From Dorea formicigenerans (GTDB lineage Bacteria; Bacillota; Clostridia; Lachnospirales; Lachnospiraceae): a stretch of 64,000 bases of DNA. Below the pieces are notes generated by a model. That model was not told where the DNA came from and ran no database searches. It saw nothing but the letters and a program-made list of their open reading frames with translations. The stretch spans positions 2,167,423-2,231,422 of the forward strand of contig NZ_CP102279.1 of the NCBI RefSeq assembly GCF_025150245.1. Reading direction: 5' to 3'. How positions within the stretch are numbered: the stretch's first letter is position 1; each line of letters begins with the position of its first letter. The position numbers and the translations under genes are program-made. Of this stretch, positions 1 to 60,113 are shown piece by piece.

Positions 1-473
1 CCCATAGTTGTCGTCATCAGTGTGGACATACAGATCAGATCTGCATCTACCTCTTTTGCCTTCTCAATAAACTGGTCAAGCGGAACGTCTCGTCCAAGAT
101 CATACATCTCGAATCCTGCTGTCTCCATCATAATCTTTACCAGGTTTTTACCGATGTCATGAGTATCTCCTTCCACAACACCAATAACTGCTTTTTTCTT
201 CGTCTGATCATCTGTATTTTCCAGATGCGGACGAAGTACATCCAGTCCCGCATACATTGCATCAGAGCAAAGGAGTACATCTGTTACAAAATACTCTTCT
301 GCATCGTAAAGCTCACTGGCCTTGTTCATACCATCTACAAGACCTTCCATAATTCCGTCAAACGCCGGATATCCGGCCTCAATATATTCTTTCGCAACTT
401 CTACGACTTCCTCATCTTCCATCTCTACTACACACTCTGATAATTTTGCTAATAATTCTTCTTTAGATGCCAT
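1..473 (-). CDS. Corrinoid (B12-binding) protein of a methyltransferase system, 3' end outside window
   Basis: The first 157 codons of a cobalamin-binding protein of the MtaC/MtbC/MttC type are present; the C-terminus runs off the left edge. Residues 1-90 form the helical cap domain. The B12-binding signature GDTHDIGKN is at about 102-110, with His105 as the expected lower axial cobalt ligand (DxHxxG). The start is supported by GGAGG just upstream of ATG at 473. Such proteins carry a methyl group on cobalt between a substrate-specific methyltransferase and a UroD-fold corrinoid:acceptor methyltransferase. The UroD-type gene at 5316-6386, on the same strand with only a MoxR/VWA/GTPase module between, is a natural partner. 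The methyl donor cannot be told from this window. Confidence 0.85.
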   Translation of the reverse strand, partial: MASKEELLAKLSECVVEMEDEEVVEVAKEYIEAGYPAFDGIMEGLVDGMNKASELYDAEEYFVTDVLLCSDAMYAGLDVLRPHLENTDDQTKKKAVIGVVEGDTHDIGKNLVKIMMETAGFEMYDLGRDVPLDQFIEKAKEVDADLICMSTLMTTTM

Positions 474-651
474 ACTATAAATCCTCCATAATCTAAATTT
501 TTATTTTGTTAGAAAATACCTCATAGCCCGCAAGCTGTTTTTTCCTGACATTCTCATCTCTTGACGTGTTTTATCTTGATACATTTTAACATTAATTACA
601 CATATCTTCAAATTGAGCACTTCCATATATTCGTACAGACATTTATCCATT

Positions 652-1992
652 CTATATGTCATCCATCAGATAACGAATCGCCCAAGCCGGCACTTCCGGA
701 ATCTCATCCAAAACTTCACTATCATATATAAATGCCACTGGATACTCCGGTTTTTTTCTCGGATAAACACCCATTCCATCTGTAAAATACAGCATTCCAT
801 TCAAGTTCGTAAGTTCTCCATTTTTTCGAAGTTCTTCTATATACTCAAATGCCGGTCTGAAATCAGTTCCTCCCCGGCCATAAAGTGTCAAATCTTCCAT
901 CACCTGCTCCAGTTCTTTCTCTGATGTAATCTTCACATCCTTCTGAACCAACGCATCACACTGGATCAGATGGAAATTCACTCTGTCTTCGCTTTTCTGC
1001 CCACTTTTTAATATCTGGTACGTTTTTTCCAGAAATCTCCGAAGTTTTTCTTCCTCCACTGACCCTGAAGTATCAATCACAGTCACAAATGTTTTCACTA
1101 CCCGGACATCCTTGTACTCCAACGGCTCGACCAGCGGCATATTTCCATACAGTTGCATTCCATAAGTATAGAAATTATAATCAAATTCCTCATCATTGAT
1201 CTTCATACGTTCCCCAAGCCTGGTGAACTTTCTTAAGAATGCACTGTAGTCCTGCTTCTTTCTGTTCGCAAGCTTTAAATTCACCAAAAAATCACCGGTT
1301 TCACCACTCCGGCTTTTCATAAATGTCTCAAGATCCACCTGAATCTTTTTCGCAGCCTGCTTCCACAGCTCTTCCAATTTTTGATTTGAGAACATGACCT
1401 CCCGGTTCTGATTCACCTGCCCTGATTTCACCTGGATTACATCATTCCTGTTTTTTGTTTCGGGATACCAGAAGCTATGGTCATCCCGACGGAAAATTTT
1501 CTCCAGCCAGTCTATTTCTGACTCTTTTGTCTTTTTCAGATATCCATAAATCTTTTCCGCATTCATAAGTCCCACATTTTTCCGGATGCGGTCAAGTTCG
1601 CGCTTTTCATCTGCCCCGGCACTAATGTCTGCAAAGTCCAGTTTCCAGCTTTCGATGATATATTCTGTTGCCATATCGCATGCAAGATCCCATTTTCTTT
1701 GCTCGATCTGTGGATTTACAAAGAAATGTCTGAATATTCCATGCACGACTAAATGCAAATACATTCTGCTGACGAAACCTTTCTCTTTCTGATATGCTCT
1801 CAGTACGTATTCCGGATTATAGTAAAGATTTTTTCCATCTGTTCCCATACCATATGAACGATTACACATACATTTAGAGGGACTCTCCGTCAGCATCCGA
1901 ATTGCCGGTTCCAGAAACCTCATATTGACCAACGTTCTCTGTCCGCTAAAGTTCAGAACTTCTGAAGCCACTTTTATTATTTCCACACACAT
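652..1992 (-). CDS. VWA-like protein with DUF2201-type N-terminal metallopeptidase-like domain
   Basis: 446 residues. The N-terminal part resembles the DUF2201 putative metallopeptidase domain, but the place where family members show HExxH reads HLVVH (residues 80-84), so the catalytic Glu appears to be Leu and peptidase activity is doubtful. The C-terminal half is a VWA-like domain with a complete MIDAS: DTSGS at 307-311, Thr376 in GGTDF, and Asp405 in FTDG. VWA proteins of this kind work with a MoxR AAA+ ATPase, as in NorQ/NorD or CobS/CobT. The MoxR gene ends 5 bp upstream, so the two are almost certainly co-expressed. The substrate is unknown. Confidence 0.8.
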   Translation of the reverse strand: MCVEIIKVASEVLNFSGQRTLVNMRFLEPAIRMLTESPSKCMCNRSYGMGTDGKNLYYNPEYVLRAYQKEKGFVSRMYLHLVVHGIFRHFFVNPQIEQRKWDLACDMATEYIIESWKLDFADISAGADEKRELDRIRKNVGLMNAEKIYGYLKKTKESEIDWLEKIFRRDDHSFWYPETKNRNDVIQVKSGQVNQNREVMFSNQKLEELWKQAAKKIQVDLETFMKSRSGETGDFLVNLKLANRKKQDYSAFLRKFTRLGERMKINDEEFDYNFYTYGMQLYGNMPLVEPLEYKDVRVVKTFVTVIDTSGSVEEEKLRRFLEKTYQILKSGQKSEDRVNFHLIQCDALVQKDVKITSEKELEQVMEDLTLYGRGGTDFRPAFEYIEELRKNGELTNLNGMLYFTDGMGVYPRKKPEYPVAFIYDSEVLDEIPEVPAWAIRYLMDDI

Positions 1993-1997
1993 AAATA

Positions 1998-3509
1998 TTA
2001 CACCTGATCAAGCCCCAGATTTTGAATCTGATCCATAAGATTTTTCTGTCTCTCGTAGAACATCAAATTCTTATTATGTTTAAAATACTCCCGACATCCA
2101 TACTGACTGATAAATCTGGCCGTATATTCATTTTCCGTAAGTTCTGTCACAAGTACAAGAATCTCCTGTCCTTCTTCAAACACATCTTCACAAAAGTAAA
2201 ATGAGTTGGACAGACACCCCGATGCTTTTCTTGTCTGCTCTTGAAAGCTTTCTGTCAACTGGGCAAAATAATCTCTGAGAATTACAAAATCTCTTTCATC
2301 CGGAGTCCGTATGCCTGCTTTTTTCCGGCATTCTTCCAGATAAACAAGCACACGGTCATCTTCCCACACCTGGGCACGGGATAAATTACCGGCACGTTTT
2401 TTCTGTTTTTCTTGTTCCATTAAACATTCTTTTTGTTGTTCGATACAAGAAACAAGGTCTCGGCCTTTTTCCACATCTGCTTTTATCTTTTTCAGGCAAT
2501 CCCCAAATACAAACAATGCATTTTGCATCTCCATTGTCTCTTTAACAGTATCCGTAATTCCATCCATCAAAAGACCAAGGAAAGAAATCCTCTCATCAAA
2601 AGATGCTTTCATCGCCCTCTGTCTTACTTGCTCTGATGGAATGCCAAATAAGATACGGTCCACCTGATAATCATTTTTATATTTTTTGAACAAATCATAA
2701 TAAATTGCAAAGTCACGGGCAATCTGCTCATCCTGCACGTACTGGCTGATCAGATTCAGATCCACAGGCAGATTCTTCTTTTCACTCAGACACATGATCT
2801 GACTTAAATCTTCCCAGCCTCTTGCTGTCACAAAATGCTTTCCATCCACTGTATTTTCCACGGAATAAAATGCATCTTTCTTCAGATCCAGATAGGTCAG
2901 GATTGCCGGGTGCATCCCCTGCTCATAAGCATATGTTTTCCAGACACTATAATCAGGCTCTACATCCATTCTCTTTACGCGGTCCCAGGACGCAATATCG
3001 AATTCCCTCACAGAATGATTGTATTCTGGCGGATTCCCTGCAGTTACGATAATCCAGCCCTCAGGCACTTTGTGCTGTCCAAATGTCTTGTACTGTAAGA
3101 ACTGAAGCATCGCCGGCGCCAAAGTCTCAGATACACAATTGATCTCATCTAGAAAAAGAATTCCTTCACATATTCCCGTGTCCTCCATCACTTCATAAAC
3201 CGCTGCAATAATCTCACTCATCGTATACTCAGATACCTGAAATTTTTCTCCGCCATACTCCTTTTCTACAATGTATGGAAGTCCCAGTGCACTCTGCCTT
3301 GTGTGATGTGTCATCGTGTAAGACACAAGTGCTACTCCAAGTTCCTGCGCAACCTGCTCCATAATTGCAGTTTTACCGATTCCCGGCGCTCCCATCAAAA
3401 ATACCGGACGCTGCTTTTCTGTCGGAATTATATATCTGCCTTTTTCATCCTTTTCCAGGTACAATTTTACCGCATGTTCAATCTGCTCTTTTGCTTCCCT
3501 AATATTCAT
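1998..3509 (-). CDS. MoxR-type AAA+ ATPase
   Basis: 503 residues. The AAA+ core fills the N-terminal half: Walker A GAPGIGKT at 40-47, Walker B ILFLDE at 117-122, and a sensor-1 Asn in TAGNP near 159. The C-terminal 200 residues are helical and charged and not assignable by eye. MoxR ATPases act as chaperones or metal-insertion motors together with VWA proteins, and the VWA gene follows 5 bp downstream. The upstream neighbour, 5 bp away, is a CobW-like GTPase. That triad recalls cobaltochelatase parts (CobS, CobT, CobW), although no CobN-like large subunit is present. Function beyond ATP-driven remodelling is inference. Confidence 0.85.
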   Translation of the reverse strand: MNIREAKEQIEHAVKLYLEKDEKGRYIIPTEKQRPVFLMGAPGIGKTAIMEQVAQELGVALVSYTMTHHTRQSALGLPYIVEKEYGGEKFQVSEYTMSEIIAAVYEVMEDTGICEGILFLDEINCVSETLAPAMLQFLQYKTFGQHKVPEGWIIVTAGNPPEYNHSVREFDIASWDRVKRMDVEPDYSVWKTYAYEQGMHPAILTYLDLKKDAFYSVENTVDGKHFVTARGWEDLSQIMCLSEKKNLPVDLNLISQYVQDEQIARDFAIYYDLFKKYKNDYQVDRILFGIPSEQVRQRAMKASFDERISFLGLLMDGITDTVKETMEMQNALFVFGDCLKKIKADVEKGRDLVSCIEQQKECLMEQEKQKKRAGNLSRAQVWEDDRVLVYLEECRKKAGIRTPDERDFVILRDYFAQLTESFQEQTRKASGCLSNSFYFCEDVFEEGQEILVLVTELTENEYTARFISQYGCREYFKHNKNLMFYERQKNLMDQIQNLGLDQV

Positions 3510-3514
3510 AAATA

Positions 3515-5251
3515 TTATGACAACGCTGCCAGAAGCTGATCAAGCTGGCTGCCCGTCTCCTCCTTCTTATCCTCATTTTGGATTTCATCCTGATAATTCA
3601 ACAGCATGCTGCGGATCTCCATATCGGATTTTTGCAGTGACTGATCCAGAAGTCTGTTCACTGCCTGTTCCGCCAATAAATTGTAATGAATGAAAAACTG
3701 TAATAACTTTTTATTTTCTAATAAAAGGACTTCATAGGAACTCCGGTTTTCTTTCAGATCCTTCACATAAGAATCAAGGATTTCACTTCTTACATCTCCC
3801 TGTTCTACCAGGTAATCTGCAAGTCCTGCTGCCGCCCACATTCTCCATTCTTTTGCAAATCTCGTAATCCTCATATTCGGTGCAATGATTTCTTCCATAT
3901 CATAGCAAGTTGTCCACATATCCCAGTCCTGAAACACTTCTTCATCCACCGGATTTCCTTCTATATACACTCGTTTTAATGCAGAACATTGTGAAAAGAT
4001 GCCTTTGCCAAACTCTGTCACCCGTTTTGGGAAATGAAGTTCTTTTAAATTCGTACACCGGTAAAACACCTTGCGTTCTACCACCTCCAGTCCTTTTGGC
4101 AAATGTACTTTCTCCAGACTGACACAAGTCACAAAAGCACCTTCTTCAATTCGCTTCACACTCTCCGGTAAATCCACCTGTTCCAGTGCCGCGCACCCGG
4201 AAAATGCATGAGCCCCAATCACTTCTGTATCATGCGGCAGTATTACTTCCCGCAGTTTTCCACAATCATTAAATGTATCATGCGGAATCTCCACCAGATG
4301 TTCTGGAAACTTCGCTTTTTTTAACATCCTGCAATAACGGAATGCACTGTGCCCAAGTTTCTGCAAATTCTCCGGTAATTCTATATATTCCAGAGGTGTT
4401 CCGCTGAAAGCATAAATGTCGATTGTTTTTATGCTTTCCGGTAAATGTATCTTTTTGATTCCACTCCCCTGAAAGGCATGCTTTCCAATTCGTTCCACTG
4501 AATCTGGCAAATGCACTTCCTGCACTTCCATGCAATACTCAAAAGCACTGTCTGCGATGATCTGGATACCATCCGGCACTTCTACAAATGCGTCAGCTCC
4601 AAGATATTTTATAAGCGTATCTCCTTCTATCTGAAGATTTTGATCTACGCTTCCAGATTCCATTACACTTTTTAATACTTCCCGTGCATTTTCACTTTTC
4701 AACGCTTTCGTATTCAGTCGTTCCAGCGCTTTCCAGCCTTCTTCTATTTCCTCCAATTCCACATCGTCTGAATCAATATTGTTGACCAGAATTACATCTG
4801 CATGTTCAATCTGGTCTACATAAAATTCTCCCAGTCCGGAGGCATATGCCTCCACCATGCCAATGTCTACAACGGTAACATTCGGTCCGATCACCATCTC
4901 AAGATGTTCCTTCTCTTTTAGCTGCGTACATACTTTCACGACATCGGACAGTTTTCCAAATCCAGATGCTTCTATAAAAATTCTGTCCGGGCAATCTTCC
5001 ATGGCAATCCGGCGCATCTTTTCTTCAAACTCAAGTGCCATCCCACAGCAAATACAGCCCTCACCGATTTCTTCATAGATCAAGCTGCCTTCTGCATTTT
5101 CCCGGTCAACTGCCTGTGCACCAAAATCATTTTGAATTACCGCAGTCTTTCCCTTTACCTGTTCTATACATTGATTTAAGAATGTTGTTTTTCCGGATCC
5201 CCGAAATCCAGATATGATCTGAACAACCATGTCCTGTTTATCTACCTCCAT
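3515..5251 (-). CDS. G3E (CobW-like) GTPase fused to BspA-type leucine-rich repeats
   Basis: 578 residues. Residues 9-170 are a G3E/CobW P-loop GTPase: Walker A GFRGSGKTT (15-23), the metal-binding CxCC motif GCICCG (65-70), the switch-like EASGFGK (94-100), and NNID (157-160) in place of NKxD. From about 220 to 450 there are at least eight BspA-type (LRR_5) repeats of about 23 residues with the pattern LPxSVxxIGxxAFxxC. The usual CobW C-terminal domain is missing and a helical tail follows. There is no signal peptide, so the repeats should be cytosolic, which is unusual because BspA-like LRRs are mostly on secreted proteins. A second ATG at 5230 is possible. The role is probably a metallochaperone or activator with the downstream MoxR/VWA pair; this is inference. 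Confidence 0.8.
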   Translation of the reverse strand: MEVDKQDMVVQIISGFRGSGKTTFLNQCIEQVKGKTAVIQNDFGAQAVDRENAEGSLIYEEIGEGCICCGMALEFEEKMRRIAMEDCPDRIFIEASGFGKLSDVVKVCTQLKEKEHLEMVIGPNVTVVDIGMVEAYASGLGEFYVDQIEHADVILVNNIDSDDVELEEIEEGWKALERLNTKALKSENAREVLKSVMESGSVDQNLQIEGDTLIKYLGADAFVEVPDGIQIIADSAFEYCMEVQEVHLPDSVERIGKHAFQGSGIKKIHLPESIKTIDIYAFSGTPLEYIELPENLQKLGHSAFRYCRMLKKAKFPEHLVEIPHDTFNDCGKLREVILPHDTEVIGAHAFSGCAALEQVDLPESVKRIEEGAFVTCVSLEKVHLPKGLEVVERKVFYRCTNLKELHFPKRVTEFGKGIFSQCSALKRVYIEGNPVDEEVFQDWDMWTTCYDMEEIIAPNMRITRFAKEWRMWAAAGLADYLVEQGDVRSEILDSYVKDLKENRSSYEVLLLENKKLLQFFIHYNLLAEQAVNRLLDQSLQKSDMEIRSMLLNYQDEIQNEDKKEETGSQLDQLLAALS

Positions 5252-5315
5252 CAGATTAGTTTTCTGATTTTATATCTTTTTATTCAAATTTGGCAGATTA
5301 TCTTTCCGACACATT

Positions 5316-6386
5316 TTACTCAAAGTTCTTAGGATCTAATGGCCATTTTCCATACTTTCTTGCTGCATTCATAAACGCTTCAATATTCTCCAATTTTACC
5401 TGACCGGAAAGATCACATCCAGAGGCAAGAATATAACCATTCGGTGAATCCCATGCTTTCTGCAAACACCTCTTTACAGCTGCATCCATTTCTTCCTTTG
5501 TTCCCTGAATAAAATAGTCGACCGGTGCCACATTTCCAAGAATCGGCATCTTCTGCCCTGCTGTATTTTTTACATGCTCCAAATCAACGACATTGTCCAC
5601 ACTGATCATATCACTTCCTGCATCTGCCATGTCATCAATTGTTTTGGTCGTATCCCCACATATATGATAGCAGACCATTCCTCCTGCATCATGAATTGCC
5701 TGATTTACTTTTTTTGCATACGGAAGCACAAACTCCTGATACTGACTCTTTCTCAAGATTGTGCCAGAAGCGAGTGGATCACATTGTAGGATCAATACCC
5801 CTTCTTGAATGAACTCTTTATAAATATCGATAAGACAATCTGTTGTAAACTGCACAAGTCTGTGAACCTTTTCTGGTGATTTCCTCATGGCACGGAACAG
5901 CTTCTCTGCTGGATAACAGCTTGTGGCAGCTGTATATGGTCCAGTAATCAGAACCCCGACCGGTACTTCATCACCAATTTCTTCTTTTACAATGTGGCAT
6001 GCCTCCAGACAATGTCTTAGGTGCGGATCATTTTCTTTTTTCAGACGTTCCGGATCCAGCTTGTCAATATCATCCAAACTTTCAAGCGGATACGTTGCGA
6101 TTGCAGGTGTCTGAAACTCCGGATCATTGGTCGTTCCCCCAAGCCCAACTCCTACCATGTGAAGCCCGTATTCAATGACTGCAAGGTCATTACCAAATCT
6201 TTTGTACGCTTCAATCTGACACTTTGCCTCATTCTCCGGTGAGCTTCTTTTCTCGCGATGAGTCATCCCACATACATCGCCTGACATAGATACTATGACC
6301 GGCATTGCAAGCATTCGATCCATCGATTGTCCTGTCATAAAAGCATTCAGTCTTTGATTCGGTGTCATCTGGTCTAATTCGTGCAT
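5316..6386 (-). CDS. Uroporphyrinogen decarboxylase-fold methyltransferase (MtaA/CmuA-like)
   Basis: 356 residues from ATG at 6386, chosen because AGGAGG lies 7 bases upstream; an ATG 24 bases earlier lacks a site. The protein has the UroD fold of corrinoid methyltransferases such as MtaA, MtbA and CmuA. The zinc-binding pattern HxC...C is visible as YHICGDT near the centre of the C-terminal half and SGCDL near the C-terminus. It is unlikely to be a haem enzyme because it sits downstream of a cobalamin riboswitch with a corrinoid protein on the same strand. It is expected to move a methyl group from a corrinoid protein to a thiol or folate acceptor in the cytoplasm. The acceptor is not known. 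Confidence 0.85.
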   Translation of the reverse strand: MHELDQMTPNQRLNAFMTGQSMDRMLAMPVIVSMSGDVCGMTHREKRSSPENEAKCQIEAYKRFGNDLAVIEYGLHMVGVGLGGTTNDPEFQTPAIATYPLESLDDIDKLDPERLKKENDPHLRHCLEACHIVKEEIGDEVPVGVLITGPYTAATSCYPAEKLFRAMRKSPEKVHRLVQFTTDCLIDIYKEFIQEGVLILQCDPLASGTILRKSQYQEFVLPYAKKVNQAIHDAGGMVCYHICGDTTKTIDDMADAGSDMISVDNVVDLEHVKNTAGQKMPILGNVAPVDYFIQGTKEEMDAAVKRCLQKAWDSPNGYILASGCDLSGQVKLENIEAFMNAARKYGKWPLDPKNFE

Positions 6387-6504
6387 AAATCTCCTCCTCG
6401 TATTATACATGCAAACAATAAGTTTCTCAATATTCCCCCTGGATTTTATACACTATAACTTCTATCACTGTCATGAACGATCAGTATAAAATATTTTTCC
6501 ACTA

Positions 6505-6551
6505 AAAAAGGCAGGGAAAATAAAACGAAGTGTCTGTTCTTTTCCCTACCG
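6505..6551 (-). terminator. Intrinsic terminator (expression platform) of the first cobalamin riboswitch
   Basis: On the minus strand GGTAGGGAAAA pairs with TTTTCCCTGCC, followed by six T residues at 6510-6505. It directly follows the aptamer and precedes the methyltransferase start by about 120 bases, the expected layout for transcription attenuation when cobalamin is bound. Confidence 0.75.
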
Positions 6552-6726
6552 AAAATCCCAATTCCTATATAGCAGGTTTCCTGGCTTGATTTCATCCTCT
6601 GCTTTCCTCTTCCCGGCTTATATTACTGCTGTTCTGTTGCAGATATAAATACCAGTGACTTCGTTGAAGCTTCGTCCATCTTACAGTAGAATAGGCTGCC
6701 CTGTATTCTCACCAGATTCCCTTTTA
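6552..6726 (-). promoter_or_regulatory. Cobalamin riboswitch 1
   Basis: Read on the minus strand, the element starts with GGGAATCTGGTGAGAAT, continues with the conserved GCCTATTCTACTGT block, and ends with the B12 box GCCAGGAAACCTGCTA at 6571-6588. A terminator hairpin follows. The downstream gene is the UroD-fold methyltransferase, and because gaps to the next four genes are small (65, 5, 5 and 178 bp), the whole corrinoid/MoxR/VWA run may be under its control. Riboswitches of this class usually switch off genes when adenosylcobalamin is abundant. Confidence 0.85.
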
Positions 6727-6941
6727 AATGTCAAATCCATCACTAATATAGTCTTCTGCATCCAGTATAATTATTAAGCACGCTTATTTCAAATAAATAA
6801 TATTGATATATCTACCCAATTATCGTTTTTTCAAATAAAATACACTCAGTCTTCATGGAATTCCTAAAAAGAATAAACTCATAAAAACCAAGTGTACATA
6901 ATTAAGAATGGCTCTACATTCCTACTTGCGAAACTATATAC

Positions 6942-8165
6942 TTATTTTTTTCTTAATGCTTTCTTTTTCTCAAGATTTGTGACAACCATGCAGCAGCTTG
7001 CATCACCTGTGATGTTTACTGTTGTACGTCCCATATCAAAGATACGATCCACTCCGGCTACAAGAGCGATTCCATCTACTGGAAGTCCTACAGATGTAAG
7101 TACCATTGCCAGCATAACCATTCCAGATCCCGGCACACCTGCTGTTCCGATAGATGCCAGTGTTGCTGTCAGGATAATCGTCAGCATCTGTGGAAGTGTC
7201 AGGTTGATTCCATAACAGGACGCGATAAAGATTGCACATACTCCCTGATAAATTGCAGTTCCATCCATGTTAATTGTTGCTCCAAGCGGAAGCACAAATG
7301 AAGTCACTTCTTTTGATGCTCCCATGTTCTCTACACACTCCATATTGATTGGAAGTGTTCCTACGGAAGAAGCACTGGAAAATGCAAACATCATTGCCGG
7401 AAGCATTCCTTTAAAGAATGCGATCGGACTCATACCGCCCATTGTCTTTACTGCTAATGAATATACAACAACTGCATGTATAATGTAGCAGACATACGCT
7501 GCTAAAAGCACCATTGCCAGTGAACCGATGATCATCGGACCATTTACTGCAATAACCGGGCACAACAGACAGAATACTCCGATTGGAGATAATCTTAAGA
7601 TCATCTCCATACATTTCATAAACATATCATTCAAATCATTACACCCCTGGATCAAACGTGGATTTTTCTCCGGTCCAATCAGAATAATCGCAAATCCGAA
7701 CAATACTGACATCACAATTACCTGAAGCATATTGGACTCAGACATCGGTGCAATAAAATTGGATGGGAAAATATTCACAATTGTATCCATAAATGATACC
7801 GACTCTGCTGCTTCATAAGTCAAGTCTGTTGTTGCAACGACCGGGAACATTCCTTTGAACAGATTTCCTCCAATCAATCCAAATGTGATTGCAAATGCGG
7901 TTGTACACATATAGTATACAACGGTCTTTAAACCAATTGCTCCTACTTTTTTAATATCCTGCATGGAAATAATCCCACACATAATGGAGAATAATACGAT
8001 TGGAACTACGATGAACTTTACAAGGTTCAGGAAAATTGTTCCAAACGGCTTAATGTAACTCTCTGCAAATTCTGCATGACTCTGCATCAGAAGTCCTACT
8101 ACAATTGCAAGAATCAATGCGATAAAAATCTGCATTGCCAAAGACATTTTTTTCTTTTGTTTCAT
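6942..8165 (-). CDS. Dicarboxylate/amino acid:cation symporter (DAACS family)
   Basis: 407 residues with eight or more hydrophobic segments. The two family signatures are clear: a serine-rich re-entrant loop SSASSVGTLPIN, then PLGATINMDGTA with the sodium-binding NMDGT core, and a C-terminal DRIFDMGRTTVNITGD matching the substrate-binding helix of GltP/DctA/SstT. These carriers import glutamate, aspartate, serine, threonine or C4-dicarboxylates with sodium or protons. Substrate cannot be settled from sequence alone. It is flanked by the two corrinoid cassettes on the same strand and lies between them without sharing either leader. Confidence 0.88.
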   Translation of the reverse strand: MKQKKKMSLAMQIFIALILAIVVGLLMQSHAEFAESYIKPFGTIFLNLVKFIVVPIVLFSIMCGIISMQDIKKVGAIGLKTVVYYMCTTAFAITFGLIGGNLFKGMFPVVATTDLTYEAAESVSFMDTIVNIFPSNFIAPMSESNMLQVIVMSVLFGFAIILIGPEKNPRLIQGCNDLNDMFMKCMEMILRLSPIGVFCLLCPVIAVNGPMIIGSLAMVLLAAYVCYIIHAVVVYSLAVKTMGGMSPIAFFKGMLPAMMFAFSSASSVGTLPINMECVENMGASKEVTSFVLPLGATINMDGTAIYQGVCAIFIASCYGINLTLPQMLTIILTATLASIGTAGVPGSGMVMLAMVLTSVGLPVDGIALVAGVDRIFDMGRTTVNITGDASCCMVVTNLEKKKALRKK

Positions 8166-8329
8166 GATTTTAACCTCTCTTTACTTGATTTCATTTCCAC
8201 GTTATATTTTACCCCAAAAAAGCACTGTCATAAGACAATGCCTATTCTCTGATATAAAATTATATCATACCTTATTCTGATTCATCAACCAGTTTTTTGC
8301 AAGTTCATGTGGAAAATTATGCATTTTTT

Positions 8330-8395
8330 GATTTGTTGGGGACGTAGCAAACTTTCAAAATACTACGTCCCCAACTGCGAAACACGGTGTCCCTT
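8330..8395. repeat. Palindromic interspersed repeat, copy 1
   Basis: A perfect 13-bp inverted repeat (GTTGGGGACGTAG / CTACGTCCCCAAC) with a 12-base loop is followed by CACGGTGTCCC. A diverged copy with the same order of motifs (TTGGGAACATAG, AACTACG, GGTGTCC) lies at 9588-9652. The two copies flank the interrupted UroD-type gene. The hairpin could act as a terminator for that gene, but the second copy argues for a mobile or REP-like palindrome. Confidence 0.55.
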
Positions 8396-8454
8396 TTTTG
8401 CCTCAAAATATCATTTTTGCATTTTTGTCGCTTCATTTGCACAAATTACATATT

Positions 8455-9573
8455 TTAATCTTCCAGAATACCTTTCGGAAGCTTTCCTAACTGCGCACCA
8501 CGACCGTATTTTCTTGCCGCATAGATAAATGCCTCCACATTTCTTTTCGGTGTACCAATCGGGAGCTGACATCCTGTATTCAAAATGTAACCTTTTGGAT
8601 TATCTCCACATTTTCTCAGGCAGTCTTTACATACCTCAATGACATCATCAATCGATCCATCTTTCATCACTTCGATCGGCGGAACGTTTCCGGCAAAGCG
8701 CATCCGGTCACCCACCTCACGCTTAGCAACCTCCAAATCCTCGCAATTATCGATACTGAATGAAAATAGACCTGCATCTGCAAGATCACTCTAAATAGGG
8801 CTTGTCTTACCACAAATATGAGCTCCCGGTCTTGATCCCATAATTTTCTCTGTTCCATCAATCAGTTTTTTAATATAAGGAAGCGAAAATTCATCAAATT
8901 GCTTCTTACTAATTACATCCATACAGGTTACCGGATCGGAAAAATTCGTTCCGACCGATCCGAACTCATGGTAAAATGCTTCAAACCATTTTAAAGAACA
9001 GACAACTGTCAAATCAAGCAATTTGTGAAGCATTTCCGGATTCTTTCTCGTATCGCGAAGAACCTTTTCAACTGGCCTGACTGCTATAGCTGTTGAAATC
9101 GGACCTGCCACACTCGTTGTCATACTAACATCCGGGAAACGTTCTTTCAATCTCTTGGCACTTTCCAAAATCGGTGCAAGAACTGGATTTTTATAAGGAT
9201 CCGTCACTTCCAATTTGTCGAAATCCGCATAATCCTGCAACACATGATGTTCAATATAATCAATTCCATGTTCAGGAACCCCTAACTTTGAACCAAGCGC
9301 AACGCCAATTGTGCGAAGACCTAATCCAACATTAAAGCTATCCAGACCAAATTCTTCTTTTCTTCGTCTGATTACTTCGCTTTTCACTTCAAAGTCTTTC
9401 GCAAATTGTGATGTTGTAAATCCAAAAATATCTGCCATAGCCGGATCAGGTGCCTGTAATGTATACGGGATATGATCTACCTCTTTCCCCTCGTTATAGG
9501 CCTTGATACGCTCCGCCGCAGTCATCTCAACCTTCTGCTCGCTCATTAATTTCTTTAATTCCGTATAATCCAT
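8455..9573 (-). pseudogene. UroD-fold methyltransferase interrupted by one in-frame amber codon
   Basis: From ATG at 9573 (GGGAGG upstream) the frame reads a UroD/MtaA-like protein to TAG at 8791-8793, after HICGKTSPI. The same frame continues at once with SDLADAGLFSFSIDN and runs open to 8455, giving a protein of about 372 residues that aligns throughout with the gene at 5316-6386 (HICGDTTKT / DDMADAG). The stop lies between the two zinc-ligand motifs, HIC and TGCQL, so a terminated product would be inactive. There is no frameshift or other damage. It may be a recent nonsense mutation, a strain polymorphism, a sequencing error, or read-through. Confidence 0.75.
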
Positions 9574-9587
9574 AACTTCCTCCCTTT

Positions 9588-9652
9588 CTTGAATTGGGAA
9601 CATAGTAAAACTCAAAAAAACTACGCCTCAATCTTTCAATATGGTGTCCATT
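9588..9652. repeat. Palindromic interspersed repeat, copy 2 (diverged)
   Basis: TTGGGAACATAGTAAAACTC, then AACTACGCCTCAA and ATGGTGTCC, follow the same layout as the repeat at 8330-8395. The inverted arms are weaker here. It fills the gap between the DUF1638 stop and the UroD-type start and overlaps the upstream non-coding extension of that frame. Confidence 0.5.
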
Positions 9653-10345
9653 TTACACGACATATGTTGTATGCAATGACTCTTTGTTTGTCATTCCAAA
9701 ATCTTCTTCTGTCATTACACCTCCTTTTTCAATAATCAAAAATTGGTCATCCCATTTCCCAGACACTAATTTTTCTAATATAATATTACTTCCCGGCACA
9801 TATTGATATGGCACATTTATAATTGCAGACTCCCTTTTTGCACGCTCTACATATTCTTTTGAATAACAATCATAAACACCTGTATCCACAATATCTACAC
9901 TCTTGTAAGCATCAAACCAGACTTTCATAACTCTTTTGGCTCTTCTTTCGCCATACTTTAAAACTAAATCTTGTTCCATCTGTTCAATAGACATCAAATC
10001 TCTGTTTTCAGTCAAATAAAAATGTCCGACTTCTTTTAAGTTGTAATGAAACTTTTCGTCCGTATGCATTAAAAGTGTAATACAATCATCAACTTTTGGC
10101 ATAATTGTCCGCCTTGGAAAAGTCCATCCTACTGATGCCCCTCCACAAACTCCCAGTCCCAAAAGCACGGTGTCTATTTCCTCCGGAAGTTGTTCCATGG
10201 CAAGAAATGCCAAATGCCAGAATTTTTCCGGTCTGCTATGCTTGGAATTATCCAGTTCAATAATGGGATAATTTGTATTCATTTTTTTCTGTGCTGCTTT
10301 CACATGATTTGTAAGTGTGGAGCAGACTATTATAGCAGTATTCAT
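9653..10345 (-). CDS. DUF1638 family protein
   Basis: 230 residues. The family is recognised from the N-terminal IIVCSTL segment, the LLGLGVCGGA motif near residue 65, and PKVDDCITLLMH near 85-95. DUF1638 proteins have no proven activity but often sit beside corrinoid methyltransferase genes. Here the gene lies directly downstream of the second cobalamin riboswitch and directly upstream of the interrupted UroD-type gene, so a role in corrinoid-dependent methyl transfer is likely. The conserved Cys and Asp residues could bind a ligand or metal; that is inference. Confidence 0.75.
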   Translation of the reverse strand: MNTAIIVCSTLTNHVKAAQKKMNTNYPIIELDNSKHSRPEKFWHLAFLAMEQLPEEIDTVLLGLGVCGGASVGWTFPRRTIMPKVDDCITLLMHTDEKFHYNLKEVGHFYLTENRDLMSIEQMEQDLVLKYGERRAKRVMKVWFDAYKSVDIVDTGVYDCYSKEYVERAKRESAIINVPYQYVPGSNIILEKLVSGKWDDQFLIIEKGGVMTEEDFGMTNKESLHTTYVV

Positions 10346-10382
10346 ATAATCGTCCTTATACTTTTTATATTTCTATGTATTA

Positions 10383-10427
10383 AAAAAGGCAGAGTAAAAA
10401 CAGCGTAACCGCTGTTCTTCCCCTACC
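10383..10427 (-). terminator. Intrinsic terminator of the second cobalamin riboswitch
   Basis: On the minus strand GGTAGGGGAAG faces CTCTGCC around an inner hairpin ACAGCGGTTACGCTGT, followed by six T residues at 10388-10383. It sits between the aptamer and the DUF1638 start. Confidence 0.7.
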
Positions 10428-10580
10428 GGAATCCCATACATATACATAGCAGGTCTCCTGACTTTGCATCCTCCTTTGATCATATCTTCCCCTTGCATCT
10501 TAGCCAGAGTGATTTTCCAGACCATCGTCCGCTTCACAGTAGAATAGGCTGTTCCAGATTCTCACTGGATTCCCTTTTCA
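10428..10580 (-). promoter_or_regulatory. Cobalamin riboswitch 2
   Basis: The minus strand reads GGGAATCCAGTGAGAAT, then GCCTATTCTACTGTGAAGCG, and ends in the B12 box GTCAGGAGACCTGCTATG. Layout and core motifs match riboswitch 1 at 6552-6726. It should control DUF1638 and the interrupted UroD-type gene. Confidence 0.85.
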
Positions 10581-10698
10581 ATGAATTATAATCATCACTA
10601 TGCACTCTACATAATTAATTTTAACCCATTCTACTCTCGCCAGCAAATAGCTTGTTTCCATATATATGTTTTATTATTGTTATTCTCTATCATATTGT

Positions 10699-13065: not shown

Positions 13066-13295
13066 GAAAAAGACAGCCGCATAAACGACTGTCCTTTATC
13101 TTTTGTATGTTCCCCAAAATGCCGGTTCCTGTATTTTGACTCCTAGCTGTCTGCTAGGTGGGTGTCCGCATTCGCTTTTCTGCCATCCTCTGCATAATGA
13201 AGGCTCGACATATTACGAAGATATAAGAGTCCCGTTTAAAGTGATGTAGGTTCAAAATAACAGGAGTTATCGTGCATCCCAGGTTCTTACTTCTT
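13066..13295 (-). ncRNA. ssrS: 6S RNA with its terminator
   Basis: The stretch between the SpoIID-type gene and the small membrane protein gene holds no frame. On the minus strand it folds as 6S RNA does. The ends pair over ten positions (CCTGGGATGC near 13283-13274 with GCATTTTGGG near 13122-13113), then TCCTGT pairs with ACAGGA. A large central bubble (TTTGAACCTACA side against the GGGTGTCC side) and an AACGGGACTC segment follow. A terminator with GACAGTCG/CGGCTGTC and TTTTT lies at 13095-13066. 6S RNA mimics an open promoter and holds the housekeeping RNA polymerase. The call rests on structure and remembered clostridial examples. Confidence 0.7.
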
Positions 13296-59744: not shown

Positions 59745-60113
59745 TTAGTCGTCAAAAATAGTTCCTTTTCGGAATCCTTTCTTCACTACTATGGAATCTG
59801 CTGACTTCTCACAGTTCGTTGTTACTAGGCTAGCGGAACCTCTGTGAGACCTCCACGCTTAAGGTGCACGCTCTTTCCTCTCATCTATCCGCCACATTTA
59901 CTCGTACTTCCAGCAACTTTTGGACTTCATCTTCTTTTGCAGACTTATCCGTATTTCCAATCCTTATATGTGATTTCTGTCCGTCGGACCAAGAGTTTGC
60001 TTACAGCTTTCTTCAGATTCCACCTCGCGATGGACCCTTGCTGTTCAGCTATACACTTCCTCGTTGTCTAGGCGTGTTCACGACTTTCACCCGTTAGAGC
60101 GCGCCCATGGCGC
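59745..60113 (-). mobile_element. Truncated group II intron, 5' part only
   Basis: On the minus strand the stretch begins TTTGCGCGCCATGGGCGCGC, then CGGGTGAAAGTCGTGAACACG, GGTGGAATCTGAAGAAAGCT and CGGACAGAAATCACATATAAGG, and ends with AACTGTGAGAAGTCAGCAGA and CCATAGTAG. These are the blocks of the 5' ribozyme domain of bacterial group II introns up to just before the maturase gene. No reverse transcriptase frame and no domain V or VI are present, so the element is a dead 5' fragment. Its first base sits directly after the T tract of the terminator at 60120-60160, a preferred kind of site for some group II introns. Assignment is from remembered sequence. Confidence 0.65.

Follow-up and report, generated by a model that had tools for sequence, protein, structure and literature searches.

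The 64,000-nucleotide stretch of Dorea formicigenerans DNA considered here (contig NZ_CP102279.1, positions 2,167,423 to 2,231,422; the window hereafter) begins within an operon headed by a vitamin B12 (cobalamin) riboswitch, in which genes of a corrinoid methyltransferase cluster are accompanied by genes for a MoxR-type AAA+ ATPase, a von Willebrand factor A (VWA) protein, and a fusion of a G3E GTPase domain with BspA-type leucine-rich repeats (LRRs) and a helical C-terminus. Sequence comparison establishes that two modules, each recurrent alone, are joined by the fusion gene in this one genome; that the two act together is what we infer. The methyltransferase cluster is probably a type 1 mlp gene cluster (MGC), predicted to serve the metabolism of methylated selenium or sulfur compounds. 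The explanation we prefer, tentatively, is that this MGC, under B12 riboswitch control, has captured a MoxR-VWA-LRR module, which would power assembly or repair of the methyltransferase complex with ATP.

The run comprises eight genes. From the riboswitch onward they encode a UroD-fold methyltransferase (UroD1), the fusion, MoxR, VWA and a corrinoid protein, whose gene crosses the start of the window, and then, wholly outside the window, two more UroD-fold proteins (UroD2 and UroD3) with a RACo/AcsV-like activase between them. Open reading frames (ORFs) and family models confirm the five minus-strand genes behind one B12 riboswitch, in the order given by a preliminary description of the window. 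That description placed the riboswitch-headed run at 1-6726; the run is present, but the aptamer reaches 6763 and the genes continue past the one for the corrinoid protein.

Two modules that recur separately

The GTPase domain was searched against 397 family genomes (own included, E up to 1e-15) and matched in 345, mostly to ordinary CobW-type proteins. The nearest relatives, the window itself excepted, come from nine genomes (37-46% identity, E 5e-43 to 1.7e-35), and all nine lie inside clusters of UroD-fold genes with a corrinoid gene; the activase is also visible in eight of these stretches, L109 lacking it. Eight lower-ranked relatives (L118-L123, L125, L126), one of which is the second CobW-type gene of the window genome, have no corrinoid cluster alongside. 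A search of named genomes with a UroD3 alignment gave 59 cluster loci, which evidently share several genomes with the nine-genome set and hence are not independent of it. The GTPase clade is present in 25 of the 59, from Lachnospiraceae, Clostridium, Sporomusa ovata, Tepidibacter, Anaerovirgula, Schnuerera and others; some of the 59 loci are on short contigs, where lack of the gene is not always meaningful. Among seven hand-picked clusters, a B12 riboswitch lies directly upstream of the GTPase gene in five (in L138, upstream of the preceding DUF1638 gene), with none there in L153 and L166. The link between GTPase and corrinoid genes drawn in the preliminary description therefore holds beyond the window genome.

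With the window genome counted in and a limit of E 1e-20, 110 of the 200 family genomes searched have MoxR relatives; in five of these (G039, G092, G157, G163, G167) the matches are weak or partial only. At class level, with a limit of E 1e-40, the count is 16 of 291, the window genome again among them, and the closest relative stands at 57%. Sixty MoxR loci, 40 mostly high-ranked and 20 further ones, were fetched with flanks of some kb, or as far as the contig ran; genes in relatives are mechanically called ORFs, labelled at thresholds that we set. A VWA gene adjoins MoxR in 59 of these loci (57 in the ORF set, plus L039 and L071), none being labelled in L056. Wherever both are labelled, VWA precedes MoxR on the same strand, so that the window, with fusion-MoxR-VWA, differs in order from every such locus. 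A third protein, of BspA-type LRRs and a helical C-terminal domain, is encoded in 37 of 39 clustered loci (L039 was left out of the clustering because the ORF set lacks its MoxR); 34 of the 37 have it at position +1 or -2. Searches with a helical-domain profile match in 52 of the 60 loci (full-sequence E up to 0.01), counting L069, where the first-listed stretch is insignificant, and L209, where the match is a fragment at the stretch edge. In four of the 60 (L213, L214, L215, L216) the helical domain is instead fused to the VWA N-terminus; this separate fusion argues for physical association of the subunits and suggests that the helical domain may be the part docking on VWA.

The two modules do not meet elsewhere in the loci compared. 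A corrinoid cluster stands beside MoxR in none of the 60 inspected loci, two of which hold a single B12-binding-domain protein of another size (L052, 807 amino acids (aa); L075, 590 aa), while weak UroD-like ORFs occur in L042 and L220. Neither MoxR, VWA nor the LRR subunit was labelled in any of the 59 cluster loci. Eight hand-picked MoxR loci gave no Rfam match, B12 riboswitch included. The preliminary description had tied the triad of fusion, MoxR and VWA to corrinoid genes and had itself named a triad found mostly away from such genes as the outcome that would speak against this tie; that outcome is what the 60 and 59 neighbourhoods give.

In a tree of 40 MoxR sequences, the window groups weakly with L046 (support 92/67) and then with L043 (90/36), both of which have large LRR subunits upstream. 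At columns that 95% or more of the 40 sequences share, the window MoxR has one departure, T174S, and in VWA the residues D307, S309, S311, T376, D405, H80, H84 and H89 are kept in 37 of 37 sequences.

The fusion junction

Matches to profiles of the third subunit (Table 1) indicate that the fusion consists of the cluster GTPase domain, the LRRs and at least the end of the helical part of that subunit, all in a reading frame open across 578 codons. The third-subunit part replaces the usual GTPase C-terminal domain, which is still present in six of the nine nearest GTPase relatives (ORFs of about 305 aa or more). The fusion protein as query against the named genomes returned 17 pattern stretches and no relative, and plasmid records gave no match; the arrangement is known from one genome, the searched set containing one genome of its genus. 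What the fusion suggests is that the module was captured within a single lineage.

The P-loop and CxCC positions of the window GTPase are invariant with 21 relatives, and the GCICC motif is kept. NKxD, the usual motif of such GTPases, is not kept in this clade. The AlphaFold2 model of the fusion is confident in the GTPase domain alone, the LRRs mostly having predicted local distance difference test (pLDDT) values <40, because the alignment covered that domain only. For this modelled domain, Foldseek neighbours include YjiA (Zn-bound), HypB, UreG and the G-domain of IcmF, a B12 enzyme, which supports a G3E-type fold. These G3E GTPases have roles in metal or cofactor delivery. The window protein is like the CobW/YjiA/HypB group in its cobW domain, P-loop and CxCC, and unlike it in having LRRs in place of the C-terminal domain. 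It belongs to neither of two equivalog models, scoring 57.3 bits against ZigA (cut-off 600) and 52.9 bits against CobW (cut-off 332.1).

Resemblance to type 1 MGCs and to MoxR-VWA systems

The methyltransferase genes have recognizable relatives. The full corrinoid gene scores 205.2 bits to TIGR02370, just below the cut-off of 215.3, and the activase matches RACo 3zyy (E 1.3e-95) and scores 474.5 bits to the AcsV model, below the cut-off of 800. The closest solved relative of UroD1 is MtaA 4ay7 (E 8e-22), and by eye UroD1 carries an H-x-C and a later Cys; UroD2, which in alignment with 4ay7 has its H-x-C and Cys at the positions of the MtaA ones, passes PRK06252, the methylcobalamin:coenzyme M methyltransferase subfamily model (416.9 bits, cut-off 244). 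UroD3, the presumed Mlp1, is without H-x-C. The genome has selB (383 bits, cut-off 242.25) and selD (387.6 bits, cut-off 125).

Type 1 MGCs were defined by Kountz and Balskus (2023, PMC10418091), the founding order, in Clostridium ljungdahlii, being Mlp1-Mlp2-corrinoid-Mlp3-RACE. In the available text of that paper, MGCs are tied to methyl-selenium and in a minority to methyl-sulfur metabolism, 87% of MGC hosts have selenocysteine machinery, and Mlps, except some Mlp1, have a His-Cys-Cys zinc site. As far as that text describes them, the window operon is like a type 1 MGC in its corrinoid protein, its Ram/RACE-type activase and its several UroD-fold methyltransferases, in the zinc-site residues of UroD1 and UroD2 together with the missing H-x-C of UroD3, and in a genome that, like MGC hosts, has selB and selD; it is unlike one in its GTPase fused to LRRs and its inserted MoxR and VWA genes. 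Three Clostridium and Sporomusa loci (L169, L171, L166) have the order GTPase-UroD3-UroD1-corrinoid-UroD2-activase, which minus the GTPase is that of C. ljungdahlii. By this gene order UroD1 is probably Mlp2, and UroD2 would take the place of Mlp3; the Mlp assignments of UroD1-3, putative as they are, draw on gene order in relatives and on models (PRK06252 for UroD2). The GTPase is a recurrent component of type 1 MGCs for which we found no mention in the main text of PMC10418091, where a text search for GTP, CobW and MoxR gave nothing. As a separate observation, selD in L229 (genome C1:332570-333490) has an in-frame TGA, so that SelD is probably itself a selenoprotein.

MoxR-VWA pairs such as NorQ-NorD, CbbQ-CbbO and CobS-CobT act in metalloenzyme maturation or reactivation. 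A MoxR and VWA core with a third conserved protein makes up the ternary systems of Kaur et al. (2020, PMC7159879), where CoxD-CoxE is named for such maturation or reactivation and where, in the available text, third components are of four kinds: VMAP, inactive STAND, FtsH and beta-propeller. The window module likewise pairs MoxR and VWA with a third conserved protein, but that protein, of LRRs and helices, is none of the four kinds in that text. Judged by its sequences, the module resembles these ternary systems and is not a member of them; the bpMoxR model gives the window MoxR 21.8 bits, under the cut-off of 27. The likeness to CobS/CobT noted in the preliminary description has no counterpart among the NCBIfam matches of MoxR (22 families, E up to 0.1) or the Pfam and NCBIfam matches of VWA; the Pfam matches of MoxR comprise at least 25 families. 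In a search confined to an open-access library, none of the titles and abstracts listed gives an account of this arrangement.

Layout and expression of the operon

Table 1. Features of the riboswitch-headed operon within the window and of the fusion gene's parts (nucleotide positions in the window unless marked L006, the stretch holding the DNA beyond its start)
Feature	Position	Strand	Support
Cobalamin riboswitch aptamer	6554..6763	-	RF00174, 67.7 bits, E 1.5e-14, gathering score 31.5
Terminator-like hairpin and T run 3' of the aptamer	6504..6550	-	fold of 6480-6560 = -21.1 kcal/mol
UroD-fold methyltransferase (UroD1)	5316..6386, ORF open from 6410	-	PF01208, 257.5 bits
Fusion: G3E GTPase domain, BspA-type LRR, helical C-terminus	3515..5251	-	cobW 103.4 bits, LRR_5 186.5 bits
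GTPase domain of fusion (residues 1-205)	4637..5251	-	cobW match at residues 10-181
LRR stretch of fusion (residues 209-435)	3947..4627	-	four third-subunit profile stretches, best conditional E-value (c-E) 4.3e-24
C-terminal helical stretch of fusion (residues 507-562)	3566..3733	-	third-subunit profile c-E 2.3e-6, C-terminal profile c-E 6.5e-8 (each for a one-sequence search)
MoxR-type AAA+ ATPase	1998..3509	-	AAA_5, 34.5 bits
VWA protein (DUF2201 type)	652..1992	-	PF09967, 53.3 bits
Corrinoid protein, 5' part	3..473, gene continuing beyond window start (L006:15246-15896)	-	B12-binding domains

The hairpin and T run following the aptamer would form the expression platform; they are absent from the list of our terminator scan, which accepts loops of 3-8 only. 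From the ORF coordinates, the gaps down the run are 64, 5, 5 and 178 bp, so that of the values in the preliminary description the last three stand and only the first, given as 65, changes. No minus-strand terminator-like site is listed inside the run by the same scan with its loops of 3-8. Promoter-like matches number 37 against a shuffled mean of 29.9 (sd 5.7), which is near expectation and therefore neither demonstrates nor excludes internal promoters; one match, of extended -10 type, lies within the 178-bp gap (611-583). The G+C content of the triad (0.41-0.42) compares with 0.40-0.44 for the cluster genes. A 49-codon ORF (504-650, minus strand) lies between the VWA and corrinoid genes and has no convincing relative in the loci compared.

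How the two modules might work together

If the captured module serves the MGC, the GTPase domain would still recognize a component of the cluster, whether the corrinoid protein, the activase or a zinc methyltransferase, and the LRRs and helical part would dock the component so bound on VWA. MoxR would then spend ATP in opening or remodelling that component, allowing cofactor or metal loading or the removal of a dead cofactor state, much as MoxR-VWA pairs do in maturation elsewhere; here the fusion would tether the client binder. Of the functional readings, this ATP-driven step, with the GTPase binding the client, is the most economical. Several observations count in favour of it. The genes for MoxR, VWA and the third protein are neighbours both in relatives and, with changed order, in the window; the conserved residues of MoxR and VWA, and the P-loop and CxCC of the GTPase, are kept; the run has two 5-bp gaps and no minus-strand terminator-like site; a riboswitch precedes the GTPase in five of seven clusters versus none of eight MoxR loci; and the genome has the selB and selD that most MGC hosts would be expected to carry. 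Such activity could result in corrinoid proteins being loaded, repaired or reactivated.

Other observations weigh against capture for a shared function. Residues 436-506 of the fusion have no match to the third-subunit profile. Three of the nine nearest GTPase relatives (ORFs of 202, 227 and 273 aa) are also without the C-terminal domain, and its loss need not signal a new function. Neither the nine loci nor the 59 hold another GTPase-LRR fusion or a MoxR or VWA gene beside the cluster. The window GTPase is divergent, with a median of 39% to family relatives versus 61% among relatives, and of the 46 columns that 20 or more of the 21 relatives share, it deviates at 9; the corresponding medians are 68/74 for UroD3, 64/79 for UroD2, 72/81 for the corrinoid protein and 66/74 for the activase, all calculated from loci with exactly one gene copy and with family membership assigned manually. 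This divergence may be adaptation or decay. The window genome also has no second MoxR or VWA gene at the thresholds used, so that the module may be performing its normal task in this genome.

These last points lead to the main rival explanation, which we consider quite possible, though short of probable: the MoxR-VWA-LRR module merely moved into the operon and kept its usual job, its LRR part becoming fused by chance to a decaying GTPase. The strong divergence of the GTPase, the single copy of the module and the lack of a corrinoid cluster beside the 60 MoxR loci all fit a relocation of this kind, as does the break of a neighbouring UroD-fold gene (8458-9573) by one in-frame TAG, a sign that the area is in flux. 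A chance fusion to a decaying gene sits less easily with a frame still open over all its codons and with the kept P-loop and CxCC positions; the module, though rearranged, is still together, and its G+C content is like that of the cluster genes. An unlikely variant of joint function has zinc rather than corrinoid as its object, the MGC GTPase being a zinc chaperone for the zinc-dependent UroD-fold methyltransferases, which the AAA+ module would help to open. The CobW group of GTPases does include zinc chaperones, the structural neighbours of the modelled domain include Zn-bound YjiA and HypB, the GCICC motif is kept, and UroD1 and UroD2 carry the H-x-C and later Cys, those of UroD2 aligning with MtaA; but the ZigA and CobW equivalog scores fall far under their cut-offs, and control by a B12 riboswitch, though it covers the whole operon, points to corrinoid supply. 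The proposal of the preliminary description, that GTPase-LRR, MoxR and VWA form a general, undescribed corrinoid machine, follows the gene order of the window and is contradicted by the neighbourhoods of the 60 MoxR and 59 cluster loci, in which neither set carries the other's genes apart from the two B12-binding-domain proteins of another size; we regard it as very improbable.

Returning to capture by the MGC, one could generalize that MoxR, VWA and the LRR and helical adaptor make up a modular AAA+ machine of Clostridia, as yet undescribed, in which the adaptor may be attached to proteins specific to one client or another. The window fusion would then reveal an MGC client and, in this lineage, a device for corrinoid or metal loading and repair; we hold this broader view to be somewhat doubtful. 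Were the fusion functional, it would name a client for a remodelling machine that is present in about half of the sampled family genomes and for which we found no described job, and B12-dependent methyl transfer in gut anaerobes would gain an assembly step that consumes energy.

Surrounding DNA

A second B12 riboswitch (10431-10617, minus strand) stands at the head of a stretch (6942-10617) that contains a DUF1638 gene, the broken UroD gene and a gene of the dicarboxylate-symporter family. DUF1638 has been linked to B12 reactivation in another bacterium, according to the available text of PMC5764234. The UroD-fold gene (8458-9573, minus strand) is 87% identical to one (374-389 aa) that many MGCs have after the activase gene, and its single in-frame TAG, at 8791-8793, falls on a codon that specifies Trp in relatives; the copy from Dorea phocaeensis (L131) is likewise interrupted by a single TAG, at a different codon. 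Read-through with pyrrolysine was rejected as far as tested, no PylS scoring over the cut-off in four genomes, both TAG-bearing ones included. Just downstream of the operon, a third B12 riboswitch (L006:9699-9908) precedes a gene for a large surface-type protein and an ATP-binding cassette system with a BtuC-like permease (L006:3204-9908, minus strand). Elsewhere in the window there are matches to 6S RNA (13107-13288, minus strand, 51.1 bits) and to a group II intron domain (59865-60034, minus strand, 132.8 bits).

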